From Homoserinimonas sedimenticola (lineage in GTDB: Bacteria; Actinomycetota; Actinomycetes; Actinomycetales; Microbacteriaceae): DNA of 64,000 bases. Location: the NCBI RefSeq assembly GCF_026094475.1, contig NZ_JAPELL010000002.1, positions 248,001 through 312,000 on the forward strand, given 5' to 3'. The translations under genes and the position numbers were made by a program. The notes beneath the pieces are model-generated. The model searched no databases and was not told the DNA's origin. It worked only from the letters and a program-made list of their open reading frames with translations. Each line of letters begins with the position of its first letter. Positions within the stretch are counted from its first letter, which is position 1. Below are positions 11,925 to 54,291 of this stretch, one piece after another.

Positions 11925-12006
11925 TACGGGAGAAGGGACTCGAACCCTCACGCCTCTCGGCACCAGAACCTAAATCTGGCGTGTATACCAATTTCACCAC
12001 TCCCGC
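11925..12006 (-). tRNA. tRNA-Leu (anticodon TAG)
   Basis: Read on the minus strand this is an 82-nt class II tRNA. The acceptor stem GCGGGAG pairs with CTCCCGT (terminal G-U), then discriminator A; the anticodon stem-loop is CCAGA-TTTAGGT-TCTGG; a long variable arm and the T arm GAGGG-TTCGAGT-CCCTT follow. The anticodon TAG reads CUA/CUG. CCA is not encoded. Confidence 0.93.
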
Positions 12007-27486: not shown

Positions 27487-27859
27487 GGGGATGATCGGTT
27501 TCGACATTGCCTGCGTGATTGTGGGAAGCGGGTCGAGGATGCCGACTTATCTCGTTAACGATGTCGGCAAACTATAAGTGCCGATTCCAAGCGCACTGAC
27601 TTCGCCCTCGCTGCCTAAGCGAGCGCACTAAAAAGTCCGTCAGCCCGGGGATGCTCTCTACCCGGGTCCTGGCGTCATTTAGAGAGATTGCTCCGCAGTT
27701 GAGCCTGAGGGCTGCGGGGGACTTTAACAAGGGCTGGGCTCGTCGGTGTGGCCGCCAGTGGCAAGCACCGGAGCCGAGGAGAACGTTTCACTGGCTACGC
27801 CCGTAGAAGACACATGACCACAGCAGTGGACCGGGGTTCGATTCCCCGCATCTCCACCA
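27487..27859 (+). ncRNA. ssrA: tmRNA
   Basis: One-piece tmRNA of about 373 nt. Its 5' end GGGGATG pairs with 3' CATCTCC in the tRNA-like acceptor stem, followed by A and an encoded CCA. T arm GACCGGGGTTCGATTCCCCGC-like end is present. The tag reading frame at 27580-27618 ends in the proteolysis signal ALAA. Works with SmpB to rescue stalled ribosomes. Confidence 0.96.
27580..27618 (+). other. tmRNA tag reading frame ADSKRTDFALAA
   Basis: Resume codon GCC at 27580, twelve codons, TAA at 27616-27618. Close to the M. tuberculosis tag ADSHQRDYALAA; the terminal ALAA directs tagged proteins to ClpXP-type proteases. Other frames in this part give no ALAA ending. Confidence 0.88.
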
Positions 27860-42262: not shown

Positions 42263-43579
42263 ATGCACGAGCTGATCCTGCTCGCCATCGGCATTGTCCT
42301 CACGGTCGGCACCGGCCTCTTCGTGGCGTCGGAGTTCGCCCTCGTCAACCTCGACCGGCAAGAGCTCGAAGCCCGGCAGGCGAGGGGTGAACCCCGCCTG
42401 ACCATGACGATCGCGGCGCTTCGGCGCACCTCCACGCATCTCTCGAGCGCCCAGCTGGGCATCACTCTCACGACGCTGCTCACGGGCTACACGCTCGAGC
42501 CTGCGTTCAGCGCGTTCCTCGCCGAACCGCTGTCGGTGTTCGGGCTGCCGGAGCCTGTGCAACGGGGCGTGGCCGCCGTGATCGCGGTGACGATCGCGAC
42601 GCTGCTGTCGATGATCATCGGCGAGCTCGTGCCCAAGAACTTCGCCCTCGCGCTGCCGCTCGGCACCGCGAAGATCGTTGTTCCGTTCCAGCTGGCCTTC
42701 ACCTGGGTGTTCCGACCGGCTGTCGCGCTGCTCAACAACTCCGCCAACGTCATCCTGAGGGGCATGGGTATCGAGCCCAAGGAGGAGCTCTCATCGGCAC
42801 GAACGGCCGAGGAGCTCACCTCCCTGCTACGCCGCTCGGCCATGGAGGGCACGCTTGAGCTCGACACCGCGACCCTTCTCGCGCGAACCCTCTCCTTCAA
42901 TGAGCATGCGGCGGGGGATGTCATGACACCCCGCCCTCGCGTCTCCAGCGTCGAACGCACCGACTCGGCCCAGGTCGTGATCGATCTCGCGAAGCGCACG
43001 GGCTACTCTCGCTTTCCCGTCGTGGATGAAGGCATCGACGACGTCGTGGGCCTCGTGCACGTCAAGCAGGCCGTCGCAGTGCCGCGTGAGAAGCGCGCCG
43101 ACGTGCCCGTCTCGGCACTGCAGAGCGAGACTCTTCGCGTGCCGGAGACGATGCGGCTCGACTCACTTCTCGGTGAGCTTCGCCAGCGCGGCTACCAAAT
43201 GGCCGTCGTGCTCGACGAGTATGGCGGCACGGCAGGTGTCGTCACGCTCGAGGATCTCGTGGAGGAGCTCGTCGGTGAGGTCGCCGACGAGCATGACCGC
43301 ACCCGCGCTGGCGTCGTTCGCTCCCGCAACTGGCTCACGTTCCCGGGAATGCTCCGCCCCGACGAGCTCCTGGAGAGGGCGGATGTCGCAGTGCCCGAGG
43401 ACGGCCCGTACGAGACCGTCGCGGGGTTCATCATGAGTGAGCTGGGTCGCCTCGCGAAGGTCGGCGACACGGTCGAGGTCGAGGCCGGCGAGTTCCGCGT
43501 CGAGCGGATGGACGGCCGCCGAATCGACCGCGTCCGCTTCACACCCAGGCCCGAGACATCCGTGGAGGACGAGCGATGA
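42263..43579 (+). CDS. CNNM/CorC family transporter-associated protein (hemolysin-like)
   Basis: A 438-residue protein: DUF21 membrane domain (about 1-190, four helices, NLDRQELEARQARGEPR, TTLLTGYTLEPAFS), a CBS pair (DVMTPRPRVSSVERT; MAVVLDEYGGTAGVVTLEDLVEELVGE) and a C-terminal CorC_HlyC domain ending ERMDGRRIDRVRF. The family mediates Na-dependent Mg export or cation homeostasis. The next paralogue overlaps its stop by 4 nt. Confidence 0.92.
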   Translation: MHELILLAIGIVLTVGTGLFVASEFALVNLDRQELEARQARGEPRLTMTIAALRRTSTHLSSAQLGITLTTLLTGYTLEPAFSAFLAEPLSVFGLPEPVQRGVAAVIAVTIATLLSMIIGELVPKNFALALPLGTAKIVVPFQLAFTWVFRPAVALLNNSANVILRGMGIEPKEELSSARTAEELTSLLRRSAMEGTLELDTATLLARTLSFNEHAAGDVMTPRPRVSSVERTDSAQVVIDLAKRTGYSRFPVVDEGIDDVVGLVHVKQAVAVPREKRADVPVSALQSETLRVPETMRLDSLLGELRQRGYQMAVVLDEYGGTAGVVTLEDLVEELVGEVADEHDRTRAGVVRSRNWLTFPGMLRPDELLERADVAVPEDGPYETVAGFIMSELGRLAKVGDTVEVEAGEFRVERMDGRRIDRVRFTPRPETSVEDER

Positions 43580-44616
43580 GCGACGTCTGGGGAATCGTCT
43601 GGCTCGTGGTGCTGCTCGCCGCGAACGCCTTCTTCGTCGGTGCCGAGTTCGCGGTCATCTCGGCTCGACGCTCGCAGATCGAACCGAGGGCCGAGGCCGG
43701 CTCGCGCGCGGCCAAGACGACGCTGTGGGCGATGGAGCACGCGACCCTCATGCTTGCGACCAGCCAGCTCGGGATCACGGTGTGCTCGCTGCTCATCCTG
43801 AACGTGTCCGAGCCCGCCATCCACCACCTGCTCGAGGTCCCGCTCGAGCTGACAGGATGGTCCGCCGACGTCATCAGTACCGTCGCGTTCATCATCGCGC
43901 TCGTGCTGGTGTCATTCCTCCACGTCGTACTGGGCGAGATGGTGCCGAAGAACCTGTCCTTCTCGCTGCCCGACCGGATGGCACTCATCCTTGCCCCGCC
44001 GCTCGTCTGGGTCTCGCGTGTCTTCAAATACGTGATCTGGTCGCTCAACGCGATCGCGAACGGCGTACTGCGACTCGTCGGTGTCGAGCCCAAGAGCGAG
44101 GCGACGAGCTCTTTCACCTTCGACGAGGTGGCCAACATCGTCGCGCACTCGACGCGCGAGGGCGTGCTCACCGACACGACGGGTGCCCTGTCCAACGCCT
44201 TCGAGTTCACCTCCAAGAAGGCGCGCGACATCGCGGTGAGCCTCGACTCGCTCATCGCAGTGTCGGAGGCCGCGACCCCCGCGGAGGTGGAGCGGGCCGT
44301 CGCACAGCACGGCTTCTCGCGCTACGTGCTCGTCGATGAGGAGGGGGAGCCGAGCGGCTACCTGCACCTCAAGGACGTCATCGACCTGGACGACGACGGT
44401 GAGTTCACGGAGCCTGTGCCGCCCAAGCGCATCCGGCATCTCATCTCGATCTTCGAGGACACCGACCTCGAGGATGCCCTCGCGACCATGCGCCGCTCGG
44501 GCGTGCACATCGCGAGGGTTTTCGACACGGAGGGTGCCACCAAGGGCGTGCTCTTCCTCGAGGACATCATCGAGGAGCTCGTGGGCGAAGTGCAGGACGC
44601 CACTCGACGCCTCTGA
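43576..44616 (+). CDS. CNNM/CorC family protein lacking the CorC_HlyC domain
   Basis: A 346-residue paralogue of the preceding protein: DUF21 domain with VLGEMVPKNLSFSLPDRMAL and a CBS pair ending LFLEDIIEELVGEVQDATRRL. The C-terminal CorC_HlyC domain of the first protein is missing and no frameshift explains this, so it is a genuinely short form. ATGA overlap suggests the two are made together, possibly as a heteromer. Confidence 0.9.
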   Translation: MSDVWGIVWLVVLLAANAFFVGAEFAVISARRSQIEPRAEAGSRAAKTTLWAMEHATLMLATSQLGITVCSLLILNVSEPAIHHLLEVPLELTGWSADVISTVAFIIALVLVSFLHVVLGEMVPKNLSFSLPDRMALILAPPLVWVSRVFKYVIWSLNAIANGVLRLVGVEPKSEATSSFTFDEVANIVAHSTREGVLTDTTGALSNAFEFTSKKARDIAVSLDSLIAVSEAATPAEVERAVAQHGFSRYVLVDEEGEPSGYLHLKDVIDLDDDGEFTEPVPPKRIRHLISIFEDTDLEDALATMRRSGVHIARVFDTEGATKGVLFLEDIIEELVGEVQDATRRL

Positions 44617-47818: not shown

Positions 47819-48496
47819 TCAGAACTCGCGCGGGCCGTCACTGCGCAGCAGGATGCCGTCGGCGATCGCGCGCTTGCGGAGCGCGACCTTCGTGCCCACG
47901 TCGATGCCCGCGATGCGGTACTTCTCACGGATGCGCTTGAGGTAGGACTTGGCGGTCTCCTCCGAGATGCCGAGCTGGTAGGCGACCGCCTTGACGGGCT
48001 CGCCACCGCCGTAGAGGGCCATGACGCGGCGCTCCTGAGCGCTCAGCTTCGGGGCGCCGCCGACCTCGGTCTGGTTGATCGCGAGATCGAGCTCAGCCGA
48101 GATGAAGGACTCATCGTTGGAGGCGGCGCGGATCGCCTCGACGATCATGGAGGCATCTTCCGTCTTGACGAGATAGCCGAGGGCGCCAGCGGCGAGAGCC
48201 TCACGCACGACGTTGGGCTCCGAGTACGTGCTCATGAGCACGGTCTTGACGCCCGTCGTCTTGAGCGTCGAGATCTTGAGCGAGATCGGCAGGTTGTCCT
48301 TGAGGTCGAGGTCGAGCAGGACGACATCGACGGGAAACTGGGGATGCGTGAGAAGCTCGGGCCAACTCGACACCGCCGCGACGAGATTGATGTCGGGAGC
48401 GGCGGACCTGATCCACTCCGTCAATGCCCCGAGGAGCATCTTGTGATCGTCGACGATCGCGAGATTGAGCGGCTCTGAAGCACTGGACACTTGCAT
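47819..48496 (-). CDS. LuxR/NarL-type response regulator (second paralogue)
   Basis: A 225-residue protein. Receiver: LAIVDDHKMLL acidic pair, phospho-acceptor Asp in VDVVLLDLDLKDN, Ser in VLMSTYSE, Lys in YLVKTEDAS. C-terminal LuxR helix-turn-helix: LSAQERRVMALYGGGEPVKA, ISEETAKSYLKRIREKY. ATG at 48496 gives a normal N terminus; an upstream frame to 48568 is rejected. It is the last of four minus-strand genes and is paralogous to the regulator at 51010-51693. Confidence 0.9.
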   Translation of the reverse strand: MQVSSASEPLNLAIVDDHKMLLGALTEWIRSAAPDINLVAAVSSWPELLTHPQFPVDVVLLDLDLKDNLPISLKISTLKTTGVKTVLMSTYSEPNVVREALAAGALGYLVKTEDASMIVEAIRAASNDESFISAELDLAINQTEVGGAPKLSAQERRVMALYGGGEPVKAVAYQLGISEETAKSYLKRIREKYRIAGIDVGTKVALRKRAIADGILLRSDGPREF

Positions 48497-48524
48497 CCCC
48501 TTAGTTTGTCTTCGCCATTGAATG

Positions 48525-49766
48525 CTACTGGTCCGCCGGATTTTCCACGAGGCATCCGATTTCGACACGCAGGCTCGAGTCCTGGGTCGAGTCGGTGTAG
48601 TGGCCCACCTTACCGATCGCCTCCCAGGTCGCGGGGTCCACGCGATTGCGCGGGATGCCCGTCGTCGTGAGTGAGATCGGCACGCTTACCCGACCATCGG
48701 TGCGCTGCGGGGCGTTCGTTCCGGCGGGTCCGATCGTCACCTGGACGGTGACGGGCTTGGTGCCCCGATCGCTCACAAGAAGCCATACCGCAGAGAGCAG
48801 GCCGTCGCGCTGTCGTCGGTCGAGCAGCCCCGCGAGACTGCTGCGGTCACTCAGCGTCACAGAACGCCCGAGCACCTCCGACTCTGTGATGGCGTGGTAG
48901 AGCCAGGTTTCGCGGCGCCCCTCGATCAGGTGCAGTCTCAGCTCGGTCGCGAGGGAGGCGGCACGCGATGCCATACTCGCCTCAAGGGGGAGGCTGAGCC
49001 GGCCGGTCGCGACCGAGTCCAGCAACTCCTCCGCCGCGAGGTCGAGACGGGCGAGCTCCTCCGAGGCGAGCATTCCCACCGCGAAGCGAGGAGCTGACAC
49101 CGTGCTCTGCACGAGCACGCGGTCGAGCTCCTTCTGCACGAGCCTGCGGAAGCGCCGCACGATGACAACTCCGAAGAGCGTGGGCAGCACGGCGAGCGAG
49201 ATGAAGGTGAGCAGCGTCGGCACGGTCGCCGGCGTGATGGGGGAGCTCGCGAGCACGCCCCAGGTCAGCACGACCGCGACCACCAGAGTCGCCGCGAGGA
49301 CCTCGCGCGCCCGCCGCAGAGTGATCGACACAAGAAGGCCCGTGGATGCGCACAGCGATGCCGTGCCCATGGCCGCCGTGTTGCCAAGCGGCCAGATCGC
49401 CACGAAGTCGAGCGCGATGACGCCGAAGATCGCGACGAGCACGAGGAGGAACAACCAGTCGGGCATGTTCTCGCCGCGGGTTGCGATCGAGACCGCGACG
49501 CCGCCCAGCATCGCCAGCAGAAGCAACCAAGCAAGGCTCACGGGCAGCGTGTCGGGGTAGAGCTCCCAGTTCCAGACGAGGAGCGTCAGGCCATAGAGCA
49601 CGATGATGCCCGCGATGACCCCCGCACCAACGCCGAGGTATCCCGTGCCCAGGCTCGCGCCGAGGGCACGAGCCTGGCGCATCGCCCGAGTAGGGGCGCC
49701 AGGCTGGCCCTTTCGCTTGCCGAAGATGACGCCGAGGGTGTTCTCGCCCAGATCGCCGTAACTCAC
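48525..49766 (-). CDS. membrane protein with degenerate histidine-kinase-like C terminus
   Basis: A 413-residue protein. After a short charged N terminus come about six hydrophobic helices (40-205), then a cytoplasmic region of helices (FRRLVQKELDRVLVQ, LRLHLIEGRRETWLYHA) and a C-terminal alpha/beta part (LLDRRQRDGLLSAVWLLVS). The layout is that of a NarL-type kinase, but I find no phospho-acceptor H-box and no N, G1 or G2 ATP boxes. It overlaps the true kinase gene by 4 nt. Probably a non-catalytic sensor or co-receptor; this is inference. Confidence 0.7.
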   Translation of the reverse strand: MSYGDLGENTLGVIFGKRKGQPGAPTRAMRQARALGASLGTGYLGVGAGVIAGIIVLYGLTLLVWNWELYPDTLPVSLAWLLLLAMLGGVAVSIATRGENMPDWLFLLVLVAIFGVIALDFVAIWPLGNTAAMGTASLCASTGLLVSITLRRAREVLAATLVVAVVLTWGVLASSPITPATVPTLLTFISLAVLPTLFGVVIVRRFRRLVQKELDRVLVQSTVSAPRFAVGMLASEELARLDLAAEELLDSVATGRLSLPLEASMASRAASLATELRLHLIEGRRETWLYHAITESEVLGRSVTLSDRSSLAGLLDRRQRDGLLSAVWLLVSDRGTKPVTVQVTIGPAGTNAPQRTDGRVSVPISLTTTGIPRNRVDPATWEAIGKVGHYTDSTQDSSLRVEIGCLVENPADQ

Positions 49767-50953
49767 GTGCGCGGCACCTCCAGGACGACCGTCGTACCTG
49801 CGCCGGGGGCCGAGAAGAGGCGCGCATTGCCGCCGACCTCCTTGAGCCGGCCCACGATCGACTCCTTGAACCCGAGACTGCTCTCACCGACCTCGTCGAG
49901 CACAAAGCCGACGCCCTGGTCGGTCACCATAGCCCGCACGGTCGTCTCGTCCTCCGTGATCGTGACGTGAGCATTCGAGACGCCGGAATGGCGGCGTACG
50001 TTCTCGAGGCACTCCGAGAGAGCGAGCAGGAAGGCGTCGAGCACCTCGCTCGGCAGCAACACGTGACCCGTGCCGTGCCAGGCGACCTCGAGTCCCATCC
50101 GGCCGAAGCGCTGCTTGACCGACTCGAGAGTCGTGCCGAGCGGAGTCTCCGAGACGGGCTCGCTCGTGTACACGATGGGGGTCGCCTGTGGGCCCGCGAC
50201 ACCGAGTCGGAGCTGGCGCAGGAGTCGCGCATCATCCGCTGCCTGCTGCCGCATAGACTCCGCCGACACGCCCACGCCGGAGTGAGCGAGGAGAGTGAGC
50301 GTCGCCAACACGGTGTCGTGGAGAAGGCGGGCACCCTGCCGCCGCTGCGCCTCCGTCTCGCTCGCCCGCCGCTCCGCACGGTGCGCGCGACCAATGCTGC
50401 TGATGCGGCGGGCGGCACGGGGAACGCTCGCGCCCAGCCAGTAGGCGAAGACCGTGACGATTCCCCAGCCGAAGGTCACGACGATCGCGGCCCGGGCAGC
50501 CGCGTCGGGGTTCGGTGCGGCAAGGAGCATGAGTGTGAGGGATGCCGCGAAGCCGAGTCCCAGCACGACCGCCCGTGCGCGCTCCATCACGAGCACCATG
50601 GCGAAGGAGGAGAGGCCGGCCGCAGCAAGGGGTGCCATGGCGCCGCGGATCGCCGCGCTCGTCTCCTCGGCGACCGGCACCTGCACGACCGCCAGGATCG
50701 CGCAGCCTGCGATGAGCCCCGCCAGGACGAGGAGGATTGATTGCGAAGTGCCCACGAGGATTTGCACGACGATCAGCACAAGGAAGAGTGGGATCACCGC
50801 GACGAGGATGTCGGTCTCGAGCACGCCGGGAACGAGGAAGCAGGCGAGCGAGACGAGAGTGGAACCCAGACCTATCATGCGGGCGGACCGGCGGAGGAGC
50901 CGATCGCGTTCCCGAGTCAGAGCGTCCACGTATTCATCGTCACACACCGTCAC
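49763..50953 (-). CDS. sensor histidine kinase (NarL/DesK-type)
   Basis: A 396-residue protein: about five or six helices (25-190), HisKA_3-like region with LLHDTVLATLTLLAHSG carrying the phospho-acceptor His, then HATPase_c with N-box LSECLENVRRHSGVSNAHVTI and G-box VTDQGVGFVLDE. Expected to phosphorylate one or both response regulators in the cluster. No extracytoplasmic sensor domain, so it senses within or near the membrane. Confidence 0.9.
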   Translation of the reverse strand: MTVCDDEYVDALTRERDRLLRRSARMIGLGSTLVSLACFLVPGVLETDILVAVIPLFLVLIVVQILVGTSQSILLVLAGLIAGCAILAVVQVPVAEETSAAIRGAMAPLAAAGLSSFAMVLVMERARAVVLGLGFAASLTLMLLAAPNPDAAARAAIVVTFGWGIVTVFAYWLGASVPRAARRISSIGRAHRAERRASETEAQRRQGARLLHDTVLATLTLLAHSGVGVSAESMRQQAADDARLLRQLRLGVAGPQATPIVYTSEPVSETPLGTTLESVKQRFGRMGLEVAWHGTGHVLLPSEVLDAFLLALSECLENVRRHSGVSNAHVTITEDETTVRAMVTDQGVGFVLDEVGESSLGFKESIVGRLKEVGGNARLFSAPGAGTTVVLEVPRT

Positions 50954-51009
50954 CCGATCGGGGGGAGCAACACTCCACCGGGGCGCAAGGCCGGCCTCTG
51001 CCGGTGCGT

Positions 51010-51693
51010 CTACTCCGAATCGACCCAGCCCTCGCGGATCGCGTGGCGTCGCAGCAGAGGACGGGTGCCGAGATCGACGCCCATCGCGCGGTACTTGCGT
51101 CGAGCGCGCTTGAGGTACGACTTCACGGTCTCCTCGGTGGTCGACATGAGCTCGGCGACCTCCCGCACGGTGCGTCCCGTCGCGTAGAGCATGAGGGCGC
51201 GAAGCTCCTGACGGCCGAGTCCGGGAGCCGCCCCGGTTGCGCCCGTGCCCTCGGAACCGCCGGTGGAATCCGCACGGTAGCGAACGCCCTCGGCCGCCGA
51301 GCGGATGGCCTGCACGAGCTGAGCGGCGTCATCCGTCTTGGGCACGAAGGCGAGGGCTCCCGCCTGGATGGCGGACTGCGCGGAGATCGCACCGGCGTGC
51401 CGGCTCATCACGACCGAGCGCACGCCCGCTGTCGTGAGAGCGCGAATCTTCGTCTCGACCGCGATGTCGTCGCCCAGCCCCAGGTCGAGCACGACGACGT
51501 CGACGGGGAACTCGGGGTGCGACAGGAGACCGACCCAGCTCGTCTCCGTCGCGACGACCTGCAGGTCGGGATGGCGGAAACGCAGGTGGGCGGCGATGCC
51601 GTCGAGCACGAGCCGATGGTCGTCGACGACGGCGACACGGATGACGGGAGCGACCGCGAGCGGGCGGCGCGAGGCATCCGTGCCCGGAGTCAT
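51010..51693 (-). CDS. LuxR/NarL-type response regulator (first paralogue)
   Basis: A 227-residue protein: RVAVVDDHRLVLDG, phospho-acceptor Asp in VDVVVLDLGLGDD, Ser in SVVMSRHAG, Lys in AFVPKTDDA, and helix-turn-helix LGRQELRALMLYATGRTVRE with TTEETVKSYLKRARRKY. It shares the ExTxKSYLKRxRxKY signature and the following GxDxGT(K/R) segment with the regulator at 47819. Its ATG overlaps the metX stop by 4 nt, so it is co-translated with metX. Confidence 0.92.
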   Translation of the reverse strand: MTPGTDASRRPLAVAPVIRVAVVDDHRLVLDGIAAHLRFRHPDLQVVATETSWVGLLSHPEFPVDVVVLDLGLGDDIAVETKIRALTTAGVRSVVMSRHAGAISAQSAIQAGALAFVPKTDDAAQLVQAIRSAAEGVRYRADSTGGSEGTGATGAAPGLGRQELRALMLYATGRTVREVAELMSTTEETVKSYLKRARRKYRAMGVDLGTRPLLRRHAIREGWVDSE

Positions 51694-52895
51694 GACGCGA
51701 GAAGCCTCTCGAGGTGGGGGCCCACGAGGTCGTCCTCGATCAGGAAGCCGTCGTGGCCGAAACTCGAGGAGATGATGACGGCCTCATCGCCGTCGATGTT
51801 TCCCGCGAGACCCCGCGCGATCACCTGTTGGTCCGGCACAGGGAAGAGTCGATCCGTGTCGATGCCGAGCACGAGGGCCCTCGCGGTCGCCCGCGAGAGG
51901 GCGGCGTCGACACCTCCGCGGTCGCGCCCGATATCGTGCGAGTTCATCGCCTCGACCAGCGTGATGTAGGAGTTCGCGTCGAAGCGGCGCGTGAACTTGT
52001 TGCCATGAAAGTCGAGGTAGCTCTCGACCGCGAAGCGACCGCCGTCTCCCAGGGGGCTTATGTCACTCTGCCAACTGCGCTGGAAGCGGGCGTTCAGCTC
52101 ATCCGGTGAACGGTAGTTGAGCAGGGCCATGCGCCGTGCGAGCGCCAGCCCCCGGTGCGGACCGTCGCCGTCGGCCGCGTCGTAGTAGTCGCCTCCGCGG
52201 AAGGCGGGGTCCATGCGGATCGCCTCGATCTGCACCGAATTGAGTGCGATCTGATCGGCGCTGCTCAGGGCAGGCGCGGCGAGCACCGCGACGCGTTCGA
52301 GACGTGACGGATGCCCGACCGCCCACTCGATCGCATGCATCCCGCCCATCGAGCCGCCGATGACCGCCGCCCAGCGGGCGATGCCGAGCGAGTCGCTGAA
52401 GAGCACCTGCGCCGCGACCTGATCACGGATCGTGAGAAAGGGGAAGCGGGCAGCCCATTCGATGCCCTCGGTCGTGTGGGAGGCGGGCCCCGTCGTCCCC
52501 TGGCAGCCCCCCAGCATGTTGGGCGCGACCACGAACCAGCGATCCGTGTCGAGGTACTTGCCGGGGCCGACGATTCCCGACCACCACCCCGTCGTCGGAT
52601 GCCCCAGGGTGGGTGGGCCGGCCAGATGGCTGTCGCCCGTGAGGGCGTGCAAAACGAGGATCGCGTTTGACCCTTCATCGTTGAGCTCGCCCCAGGTCTC
52701 GAATGCCATCCGGACGCCGGGAAGGTGGCCCCCGCGCTCGAGGCGCAGCGGGCCGAGGTTGGCGAAGCGCCGACGCCCTGCGGGGTCGCCTTCCCGCCAC
52801 GCGCCGCTAGCGGGAGGCTTGCCGATGAGCGCCCTGTTGTTGGCCTCCGTCACGAAGCTCGAGGGGACGCTGTCTTCGGGTGTCTGCCAATCCAT
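51690..52895 (-). CDS. metX: homoserine O-acetyltransferase
   Basis: First step of methionine synthesis by the acetyl branch: acetyl-CoA plus homoserine. Alpha/beta-hydrolase fold, 401 residues; nucleophile elbow VIGGSMGGMHAIEWA, early MAFETWGELN and LHALTGDSH, catalytic Asp/His in DRLFPVPDQQ and SSFGHDGFLIEDD. ATG 52895 lies 10 nt after minus-strand GATACT (52911-52906), so it has its own promoter downstream of the metY hairpin. Overlaps the response-regulator gene by 4 nt. Confidence 0.95.
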   Translation of the reverse strand: MDWQTPEDSVPSSFVTEANNRALIGKPPASGAWREGDPAGRRRFANLGPLRLERGGHLPGVRMAFETWGELNDEGSNAILVLHALTGDSHLAGPPTLGHPTTGWWSGIVGPGKYLDTDRWFVVAPNMLGGCQGTTGPASHTTEGIEWAARFPFLTIRDQVAAQVLFSDSLGIARWAAVIGGSMGGMHAIEWAVGHPSRLERVAVLAAPALSSADQIALNSVQIEAIRMDPAFRGGDYYDAADGDGPHRGLALARRMALLNYRSPDELNARFQRSWQSDISPLGDGGRFAVESYLDFHGNKFTRRFDANSYITLVEAMNSHDIGRDRGGVDAALSRATARALVLGIDTDRLFPVPDQQVIARGLAGNIDGDEAVIISSSFGHDGFLIEDDLVGPHLERLLAS

Positions 52896-52971: not shown

Positions 52972-54291
52972 TCAGTGCTGTCGCGCGGCCTCTGCCACGG
53001 TGCGGGCCGCCTGCAGCCCCGCGTCGAGGTCTGCCTTGATGTCCTCGATGTTCTCGAGGCCGACCGAGAGGCGCACGAGCCCCGGCGTGACGCCCGCCGT
53101 CAGCTGCTGCTCCGGTGTGAGCTGCGAATGCGTCGTCGAGGCCGGGTGGATGACGAGGCTGCGCACGTCGCCGATGTTGGCGACGTGGCTGAACAGGGAG
53201 AGGCCGTTGACGAAGGCGCGGCCCGCGTCGACGCCGCCCTTGAGCTCGAACGACAGCACCGCTCCGACGCCCTTGGGTGCGTAGGAGTTCGCCGTCGCGT
53301 ACCAGGGGCTCGTGGGCAGCCCCGCGTAGTAGACGGTGTCGACATCGGGGTGGTTGTCGAGCCACTCCGCGACATCCTGTGCATTCTGCACGTGACGTTC
53401 GATGCGCAGGCTCAGCGTCTCGATGCCCTGGATGAGCCCCCAGGCGTTGTCGGGGGAGATGGCGGGTCCGAGGTCGCGCAGCAGCTGCACGCGCGCCTTG
53501 ATGACGAACGCGATCGCGTCGCCCACGGCACCCGTGTAGCTGGCCCCGTGGTAGCTCGGGTCCGGCTCGGTCAGGCCGGGGAACTTCTCCACGTTCTTCG
53601 ACCACTCGAAGCGGCCGCCGTCGACGATCACACCGCCGAGCGCCGTGCCGTGACCGCCGAGGAACTTGGTGGCGGAGTGCACGACGATGTCGGCGCCGTG
53701 CTCGAAGGGACGGATGAGGTAGGGCGTCGCGATCGTGTTGTCGACGATGAGCGGGAGCCCGTGCTCGTGCGCGACGGCCGCGACCGACTTGATGTCGAGG
53801 ATGTTGATCTTGGGATTGCCGATCGTCTCGCCGAAGAAGAGCTTGGTGTTGGGTCGCACGGCCGCCGCCCACTCGGCGGGGTCGTCCTGGTTCTCGACGA
53901 AGGTCGTCTCGACCCCGAGCTTGGCGAGCGTGTACTTGAAGAGGTTGTAGGTGCCGCCGTAGATCGAGGAGGAGGAGACGATGTGGTCGCCCGCCTGCGC
54001 GATGTTGAGCACCGCGAGGGAGGTGGCCGACTGGCCGGAGGCGAGAGCGAGGGCCGCCGAGCCACCCTCGAGCGCCGCGATGCGCTGCTCGACGACATCC
54101 TGCGTCGGGTTCTGGATGCGCGTGTAGATGTTGCCGAACTCGGCGAGGGCGAAGAGGTTCTGCGCGTGGTCGGCGTTGTTGAAGACGTAGGCCGTCGTGC
54201 GGTAGAGCGGCGTCGCGCGAGCGTTCGTCACGGGATCGGGAACCGCCCCGGCGTGGATCTGCTTGGTCTCGAACTTCCAGTCGTCGCTCAC
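52972..54291 (-). CDS. metY: O-acetylhomoserine sulfhydrylase (aminocarboxypropyltransferase)
   Basis: PLP enzyme of the Cys/Met metabolism family, 439 residues, converting O-acetylhomoserine and sulfide to homocysteine. Seen: YTRIQNPTQDVVEQRIAALEGG, the Schiff-base Lys in VHSATKFLGGHGTALGG, and SVGLENIEDIKADLD. GTG start at 54291 with a gagg ribosome-binding site. It uses the product of MetX, encoded next downstream. Confidence 0.95.
   Translation of the reverse strand: MSDDWKFETKQIHAGAVPDPVTNARATPLYRTTAYVFNNADHAQNLFALAEFGNIYTRIQNPTQDVVEQRIAALEGGSAALALASGQSATSLAVLNIAQAGDHIVSSSSIYGGTYNLFKYTLAKLGVETTFVENQDDPAEWAAAVRPNTKLFFGETIGNPKINILDIKSVAAVAHEHGLPLIVDNTIATPYLIRPFEHGADIVVHSATKFLGGHGTALGGVIVDGGRFEWSKNVEKFPGLTEPDPSYHGASYTGAVGDAIAFVIKARVQLLRDLGPAISPDNAWGLIQGIETLSLRIERHVQNAQDVAEWLDNHPDVDTVYYAGLPTSPWYATANSYAPKGVGAVLSFELKGGVDAGRAFVNGLSLFSHVANIGDVRSLVIHPASTTHSQLTPEQQLTAGVTPGLVRLSVGLENIEDIKADLDAGLQAARTVAEAARQH

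Follow-up and report, generated by a model that had tools for sequence, protein, structure and literature searches.

The window analysed here, a 64,000-nucleotide stretch of the Homoserinimonas sedimenticola genome (G000:C1:248001-312000; source genome of 2.84 Mb on nine contigs), carries a signalling locus in which a membrane histidine kinase (HK) is encoded together with a 413-residue kinase-like membrane protein (PSK) and two response regulators (RR1 and RR2). Comparative analysis revealed that the conserved unit of this locus is HK-PSK-RR1, RR2 being optional. We consider it probable, at roughly 60%, that HK and PSK, as kinase and pseudokinase, constitute an obligate complex by which RR1 is controlled, RR2 acting as a lineage-specific modifier.

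Among 59 surveyed genomes, including 36 Microbacteriaceae, a family of soil and water bacteria, and 23 other members of the order, PSK, HK and a close RR1 (at least 73% identity) occurred together in the same 24 family genomes, a count that takes in the metagenome-assembled genome (MAG) G013 with its broken HK and PSK frames, and in none of the 23 others. The 12 family genomes devoid of the module comprised all seven of at most 1.8 Mb, plus five of 2.8-3.8 Mb. Across the 80 named loci, which are the best of 242 found, HK was located directly upstream of PSK in 79 (the exception lies at a contig end), RR1 directly downstream of PSK in 77 (the other three contigs end there) and a metX-like gene upstream in 74 (in the remaining six, the contig stops no later than its expected start). 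RR2 was present in 39 of these 80 loci and missing from 37 of the 74 with the metX-like gene in view. In 89 of 102 loci the HK and PSK genes shared exactly 4 bp, L044 and L055-L059 being set aside and starts being assigned by a simple rule that makes some gaps wrong (HK-PSK range -389 to 1166). Since dozens of genomes have the same order at the orthologous place, the arrangement is more than chance. The co-conservation envisaged in a preliminary description of the locus, made from the window alone, was thus recovered for HK, PSK and RR1, in their shared genomes as in their gene order. Its proposal that the sensor pair feeds two regulators does not describe the conserved design, given the patchy presence of RR2 and, in some genomes, its largely deleted or altered receiver; branched or antagonistic output could apply solely to the lineages keeping RR2.

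In wider searches, the PSK profile A1 found matches in 3 of 296 genomes of the phylum, all Microbacteriaceae, and profile A7, built from seven distant PSK-like proteins, in 8 of 246 genomes of the class, six of them Microbacteriaceae, the two others being marginal matches (E 3.6e-4 and 7.3e-4). Because six or seven candidates per genome were scored in both searches, more distant relatives may have escaped them. A PSK match in G045 (E 3.1e-4), restricted to membrane residues 79-211 and found on a contig with what we take to be OmpR-type regulator, kinase and ABC-transporter genes, was regarded as a probably spurious membrane-segment match. Separately, two family genomes of 1.4-1.5 Mb (G014 and G017; loci L149 and L150) harbour a regulator-kinase pair distantly like RR1-HK, with no PSK adjoining.

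Sequence and predicted fold of PSK and its partners

No Pfam family matched PSK at E ≤ 1, and kinase-family matches at this threshold were obtained for none of 25 PSK homologues and none of 7 proteins of the paralogous PSK2 group. The preliminary description had presented PSK as a membrane protein of kinase layout without visible H, N or G boxes, and this view was upheld: profiles detected no ATP-binding domain in the 413-residue protein or its 25 homologues, no invariant His was found across 105 PSKs (H279 in 99/105, H291 in 100/105), and N and G boxes were not seen in an alignment inspected by eye. No histidine phosphotransfer (HPt) domain was matched in PSK at E ≤ 1, and neither PSK nor HK gave an HPt or receiver match that would parallel RcsD/RcsC. 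Searched against solved structures, PSK retrieved nothing up to E 10 as a single sequence and only four weak matches (E ≥ 0.14) as a profile.

Residue conservation was counted over 104-105 homologues, with HK and PSK of at least 370 aa and RR1 of at least 200 aa, RR1 and RR2 of at least 55% and 40% identity, respectively, and leaving aside all of L044 (broken frames, MAG G013) and, among HK, L058/L059 and second copies. Thirty-nine PSK positions were kept in at least 97% of 105 homologues, including D242, E246, W288, D307, R320 and W328. D242 and E246, located in the first helix of the dimerisation and histidine phosphotransfer (DHp) region, form a DxxxE pair present in 105/105. Mean identity to the window copy reached 81% in the DHp region, 58% in the catalytic and ATP-binding (CA) region and 40% in the transmembrane (TM) region, so that PSK is most conserved where kinases dimerise and bind regulators. 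Placing D242xxxE246 on the kinase DxxxQ motif was attempted by helix-register scoring and abandoned, as no offset stands out.

The full-length AlphaFold (AF2) model with 25 homologues (predicted local distance difference test score, pLDDT, 81.5) comprised six membrane helices (one of them short and broken, five clear peaks being seen in a hydropathy scan), followed by a long linking helix, a pair of DHp-like helices and a domain of alpha/beta type, and the soluble part modelled with 65 homologues reached a pLDDT of 87.9 and a predicted template modelling score (pTM) of 0.77. Compared with VIA, this soluble model matched kinase-type structures in 50 of the 50 rows listed (Z 7.2-8.9, root-mean-square deviation (rmsd) mostly 3-4 Å over 103-139 residues), the best being 5epv (Z 8.9, rmsd 3.8, 131 residues aligned); we take these rows, partly from their titles, to be kinases, phytochromes, ETR1, CheA and ChpT-type phosphotransferases. 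With the full-length model, 45 of 50 listed rows were kinase-type and the five others matched membrane helices. The leading Foldseek rows for the soluble part were LvrB (3.5e-4; a protein with a kinase-type part), phytochrome A, RetS, CckA, SrrB, CpxA and DesK. PSK is therefore predicted, from these models, to adopt a histidine-kinase transmitter fold with DHp helices and a CA alpha/beta domain, most surely for the CA part.

HK itself displayed the sequence motifs of a histidine kinase. All 26 HK homologues examined matched HATPase_c in Pfam, and H212, D213, D345, G347 and G349 were present in 104/104 homologues and N318 in 103/104. HK thus combines the HATPase_c domain with the HD-containing H box of HisKA_3 kinases, although PF07730 (HisKA_3) itself was absent, at E ≤ 1, from its Pfam matches and HK from the seven PF07730 places of the genome. 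At the Q position of the DxxxQ phosphatase motif, HK has Ala in 104/104 homologues. Its best NCBIfam match was MacS (8.8e-21, 74.5 bits, the cut-off being 300), the weaker ones including LiaS (42.9 bits against 450).

Both regulators scored above the Pfam cut-off for Response_reg and associate a receiver bearing an acceptor Asp with a LuxR-type helix-turn-helix (HTH), as NarL/FixJ response regulators do, the GerE match being above the 23.5-bit cut-off in RR1 (36.4 bits) and just under it in RR2 (23.1 bits). The acceptor is D62 in 104/104 RR1 homologues and D70 in 45/48 RR2 homologues. The unusual signature that the two proteins had been said to share reads EETAKSYLKRIREKY...GIDVGT in RR1 and EETVKSYLKRARRKY...GVDLGT in RR2, and RR2 is the nearest RR1 paralogue within the source genome (E 2.3e-49). 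RR1 matches in 23 genomes besides the source were 73-96% identical. Decay of RR2 is evident in some genomes: most of the receiver is deleted at L036:10928-11353, its acceptor Asp is replaced by Glu at L042:6109-6774, and its second acidic-pocket residue is Thr at L039:11078-11734, the HTH being kept in all three. In another family of the order, a regulator 48% identical to RR1 (L145:7470-8210, G050) had no HK- or PSK-like gene within the 15 kb fetched, and it is labelled here, from sequence, as orphan or transferred.

Co-variation and paralogous copies of the HK-PSK pair

Co-variation between domains was estimated as the correlation left after removal, by cubic fit, of the part explained by MetX distance, in 75 genomes (73 with MetY, 27 with NADHox) from which near-identical ones (MetX distance ≤ 0.03) and L055-L057 had been withdrawn. 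Because genome pairs are not independent, the resulting values are indications and not probabilities: 0.74 between the TM domains of HK and PSK and 0.86 between their DHp domains, compared with 0.69 (HK) and 0.63 (PSK) between TM and DHp within a chain. The neighbouring genes gave 0.34-0.41 for GT87 (0.53 in the set of 27) and -0.11 to 0.16 for MetY. Over 60 random halves, the counterpart domain was the best partner in 57 (HK DHp to PSK DHp), 56 (PSK DHp to HK DHp), 54 (PSK TM to HK TM) and 45 (HK TM to PSK TM). The TM-TM signal stayed at 0.74 by rank correlation and at 0.65, against 0.35 within HK, in the 67 closer genomes. Each membrane domain thus tracks that of the partner protein more closely than it tracks the remainder of its own chain. 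RR1 co-varied at 0.65 with the DHp domain of PSK and at 0.54 with that of HK (75 genomes).

The pair also occurs in several copies. Distant PSK copies were detected in two genomes, L058 and L059 (A1 against L059, probability 96.7%, E 4.3e-10), and profile A7 recovered three PSK-family members in the source genome, namely the PSK of the window (PSK1, E 2.1e-10), PSK2 and PSK3, all three immediately preceded by the gene of a related kinase. The H box of HK3, the kinase preceding PSK3, is HETVLR, and in one genome of the genus the PSK2 frame is broken by stop codons (L165:5511-6710, G004). More widely, a kinase adjoined PSK in 36 of 37 PSK-bearing loci and an RR1-like regulator was present in 20 of 37; six of these 20 (L143, L153-L157) were fetched for their regulator match, and the neighbouring regulator is not independent there.

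Trees of 51 HK and PSK pairs, hand-chosen to span the copies (with labels T1, T1b, T2 and T3 assigned from matches, and the HK tree obtained by quick search), both separated {T1,T1b} from {T2,T3} with full support and shared many clusters below this split, where the differences were that L047 joined T1b in the HK tree but not in the PSK tree and that L173 shifted. Such agreement is expected if the pairs duplicated largely as units, and the two genes appear, from these sequences, to have been copied together in evolution, suggesting that the putatively dead protein serves as a functional half of the sensor.

Layout of the locus and neighbouring genes

Open frames and their translations placed metY-like, metX-like, RR2, HK, PSK and RR1 in this order on the minus strand (Table 1). 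The preliminary description had recognised the order regulator, kinase, membrane protein, regulator and an overlap of the membrane protein with the kinase; all four frames are indeed open at those places, and the GTG start of PSK and the stop of HK share 4 bp (49763-49766). A second 4-bp overlap joins the RR2 ATG to the stop of the metX-like gene. From alignments inspected by eye, RR1 probably starts at GTG 48490 (MSSASEP..., matching its orthologues) within a frame open to 48568, and HK perhaps at GTG 50929 rather than at 50953. The metX-like gene is presumably a homoserine acetyltransferase gene, the metY-like name being likewise our assumption.

Table 1. Genes of the signalling locus (window positions) and further PSK-family genes of the source genome (genome:contig:positions)
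Feature	Location	Strand	Description	Pfam match
RR2	51010..51693	-	optional response regulator with receiver and LuxR-type HTH	Response_reg 1.9e-10
HK	49763..50953	-	membrane histidine kinase, H box LLHDTVLA, N box, G boxes	HATPase_c 1.7e-7
PSK	48525..49766	-	413-aa membrane protein lacking kinase motifs, predicted to have a degenerate histidine-kinase transmitter fold	
RR1	47819..48490	-	core NarL/FixJ-type response regulator	Response_reg 5.5e-11, GerE 4.1e-9
metX-like gene	51690..52895	-	constant upstream neighbour	
metY-like gene	52972..54291	-	upstream neighbour, from gene order	
PSK2	G000:C9:1127565-1128725	- (in L143)	flanked by HK2 and another LuxR-type regulator (triad at L143:5869-9177)	
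PSK3	G000:C1:127048-128130	+ (in L181)	follows HK3 with 4-bp overlap, no regulator adjoining (pair at L181:4844-7164)	

The promoter and terminator scan revealed a single promoter-like site at 54368-54340 (-), directly 5' of the metY-like gene, from which a metY-metX-RR2-HK-PSK-RR1 transcript could start (0.3 such sites expected by chance). Two terminator-like sites lay within genes, against 1.5 expected by chance, and neither kind of site was used as support. Around the paralogous pairs, HK2-PSK2 has upstream a gene we take to be mqo-like, with a presumed thymidine-kinase-like gene after the regulator in relatives, and HK3-PSK3 lies between what are presumably ispH-like and aldolase-like genes. 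Elsewhere in the window, Rfam identified a tmRNA gene (27487-27859, +) and a tRNA gene (11925-12006, -), and positions 43576-44616 encode a membrane protein, presumably CBS-domain/hemolysin-like, which in relatives adjoins a tandem paralogue 30-33% identical to it.

Proposed mechanism, rival explanations and known systems

From these sequences we infer that HK and PSK would form a physical complex in which their activities differ, the signs of contact (co-variation and coupling) being indirect, and we picture the direction of control and the role of RR2 in the same spirit. HK and PSK would be two halves of one membrane sensor, produced in step through translational coupling at the 4-bp overlap and associated via their membrane helices, probably via their DHp helices too, as a heterodimer or a tetramer of two homodimers. 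ATP would be bound by HK alone, which would phosphorylate itself on H212 and pass the phosphate to RR1, and PSK, a putative non-catalytic and signal-responsive subunit with a retained kinase fold, would set the on/off state of HK and may assist RR1 docking. RR1, the conserved output, would control its promoters by means of its HTH, which is strongly conserved. In genomes that have it, RR2 may compete or dimerise with RR1 on sites of the same type, as suggested by its similar recognition helix (the shared signature). The catalytic/non-catalytic sensor pair of the preliminary description thus gains good though indirect support from the predicted fold, the co-occurrence, the 4-bp coupling, the membrane-part co-variation and the joint duplication.

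Several observations weigh against this interpretation. The profiles of PSK and HK aligned at full length with hhalign (E 6.5e-5, probability 64%), a match that may be owed to membrane composition, their soluble parts giving no significant alignment (E 0.25 local, 0.83 global); shared descent by sequence is hence not claimed. The leading kinase rows of Foldseek had low TM-scores (TMq 0.23-0.38, rmsd 5-18 Å), phage tail proteins, de novo designs and a fragment of a tRNA synthetase appeared among them as non-kinase rows from rank 13 on, and for the full-length model Foldseek found nothing at E ≤ 0.001. VIA Z-scores of the size obtained are common, and in many rows the alignment is confined to the CA part, so that the weight rests on the uniformity of the match lists. 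The CA domains of HK and PSK co-varied at 0.58, without pairing, and the DHp-DHp excess vanished when ranks were correlated (0.71, the within-chain values being 0.70 and 0.74) as well as in the 67 closer genomes (0.42 against 0.44). At L189 (G528:C99:10000-20000), the sole exception among the wider loci, a PSK-like fragment (E 5e-12) had no kinase within the 10 kb fetched. In addition, a preprint argues that RcsC and RcsD, a precedent for such a pair, occur as two homodimers and not as 1:1 heterodimers (PMC13317618).

Information might also flow in the reverse direction, with PSK binding phosphorylated RR1 (or RR2) and reporting the regulator state to HK, a scheme that we regard as unlikely. 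Its precedent is DivL of Caulobacter, described as a pseudo-histidine kinase binding DivK~P and passing a signal to CckA; as envisaged for PSK, it has a kinase fold, no kinase or phosphatase activity, and modulates another kinase (PMC5361649, PMC4211667). The DHp region, the regulator-docking site in kinases, is the most conserved part of PSK and co-varies with RR1 more closely than that of HK; overall, however, PSK co-varies more with HK than with RR1. DivL moreover bridges two pathways and has PAS sensors and Tyr at the His site, whereas PSK has a membrane sensor part, escapes the Pfam kinase models and is encoded with its own kinase. Quite improbable in our view is a relation like that of LiaF, reported as a negative regulator in LiaFSR (PMC3543457), in which PSK would be a plain membrane inhibitor or co-sensor of HK and its kinase-like fold not a true transmitter. 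The modest fold scores and the lack of a soluble-part profile link between PSK and HK are consistent with it; the high confidence of the PSK model, its mostly kinase structural matches, and the succession of membrane part, helix, two helices and alpha/beta domain that mirrors HK argue the other way.

Another possibility, which we hold to be similarly doubtful, is a split bifunctional kinase, HK being kinase-only and PSK carrying or completing the phosphatase activity toward RR1~P. In NarX, a HisKA_3 kinase, phosphatase activity is reported to need DxxxQ, the His being dispensable (PMC3510030, PMC5231405). A two-chain kinase/phosphatase is possible because NarX needs this Gln, HK has Ala there and PSK1 has its invariant DxxxE, and because the seven PF07730 places of the source genome (two of them sub-cut-off) read H, H, P, Q, H, Q and Q, that is Gln or His in 6/7. 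In its boldest form, this would give a family of two-chain kinases, its obligate pair duplicated as a unit at least twice, in which HK retains the phospho-His and ATP site without the phosphatase Gln, and PSK, its kinase residues lost, performs or gates RR1 dephosphorylation through the invariant D242xxxE246 of its docking helix, a proposal just as much of a long shot. Comparison of the HK and PSK helix registers singles out no offset in its favour, DxxxE is not a demonstrated phosphatase motif and is not kept in PSK2, nor in PSK3 (ungapped reading by eye), PSK-less kinases are also without the Gln (L144 Ser, L149 Thr, L152 Ala), and DivL is described as having no phosphatase activity in the two works on it cited above. 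Least credible of all is a phosphotransfer protein like ChpT, Spo0B or RcsD, in which PSK would relay phosphate from HK to RR1. The structural matches do include ChpT (4fmt) and bacterial phosphotransferases (4qpk, 4qpj) in VIA and 1f51, which we take to be Spo0B-Spo0F, in Foldseek; nevertheless PSK has neither an HPt match nor an invariant His, PSK2 having neither H279 nor H291 (by eye), and the relay step is unneeded since RR1 has a receiver with its own Asp.

The obligate HK-PSK complex that we favour has partial counterparts beyond DivL. RcsC-RcsD-RcsB likewise unites an active kinase, a membrane protein with an inactive kinase domain and a regulator, and RcsD is proposed, in the same preprint, to regulate the kinase/phosphatase balance of RcsC (PMC13317618); RcsD has a phosphate-relaying HPt and RcsC a receiver, whereas PSK and HK match neither. 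In Corynebacterium glutamicum, a kinase-dead ChrS variant is hypothesised to stimulate HrrS, and native HrrS and ChrS are reported to heterodimerise, no heterodimer being detected with truncated ChrS (PMC9491836); this pseudokinase is described there as a laboratory frameshift variant, in contrast to the long-conserved PSK family. LiaFSR and VraTSR also gather a kinase, a membrane accessory protein and a regulator in one system (PMC3543457), yet HK is far under the LiaS cut-off. The MacS-type actinobacterial two-component systems supply the best NCBIfam match of HK, yet one below cut-off. We know of no PSK-like partner protein for MacS and, to our knowledge, LiaF is not a kinase fold.

Natural pseudo-histidine kinases have been the subject of few studies according to one account, which puts kinases with a substituted phospho-His at about 1% of those sequenced (PMC5361649). 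Our literature searches on pseudo-histidine kinases returned no description of the PSK family, and a census by substituted His would miss it, because no Pfam kinase model recognises PSK. Pseudo-histidine kinases as such being already known (DivL, RcsD), we consider PSK to be a new family of them, coupled to their kinases. With three versions in one genome, this two-gene system offers a test bed for the control of a live kinase by a dead one, and the HK-PSK pairs give a chance to ask whether kinase and phosphatase are separable onto two chains.

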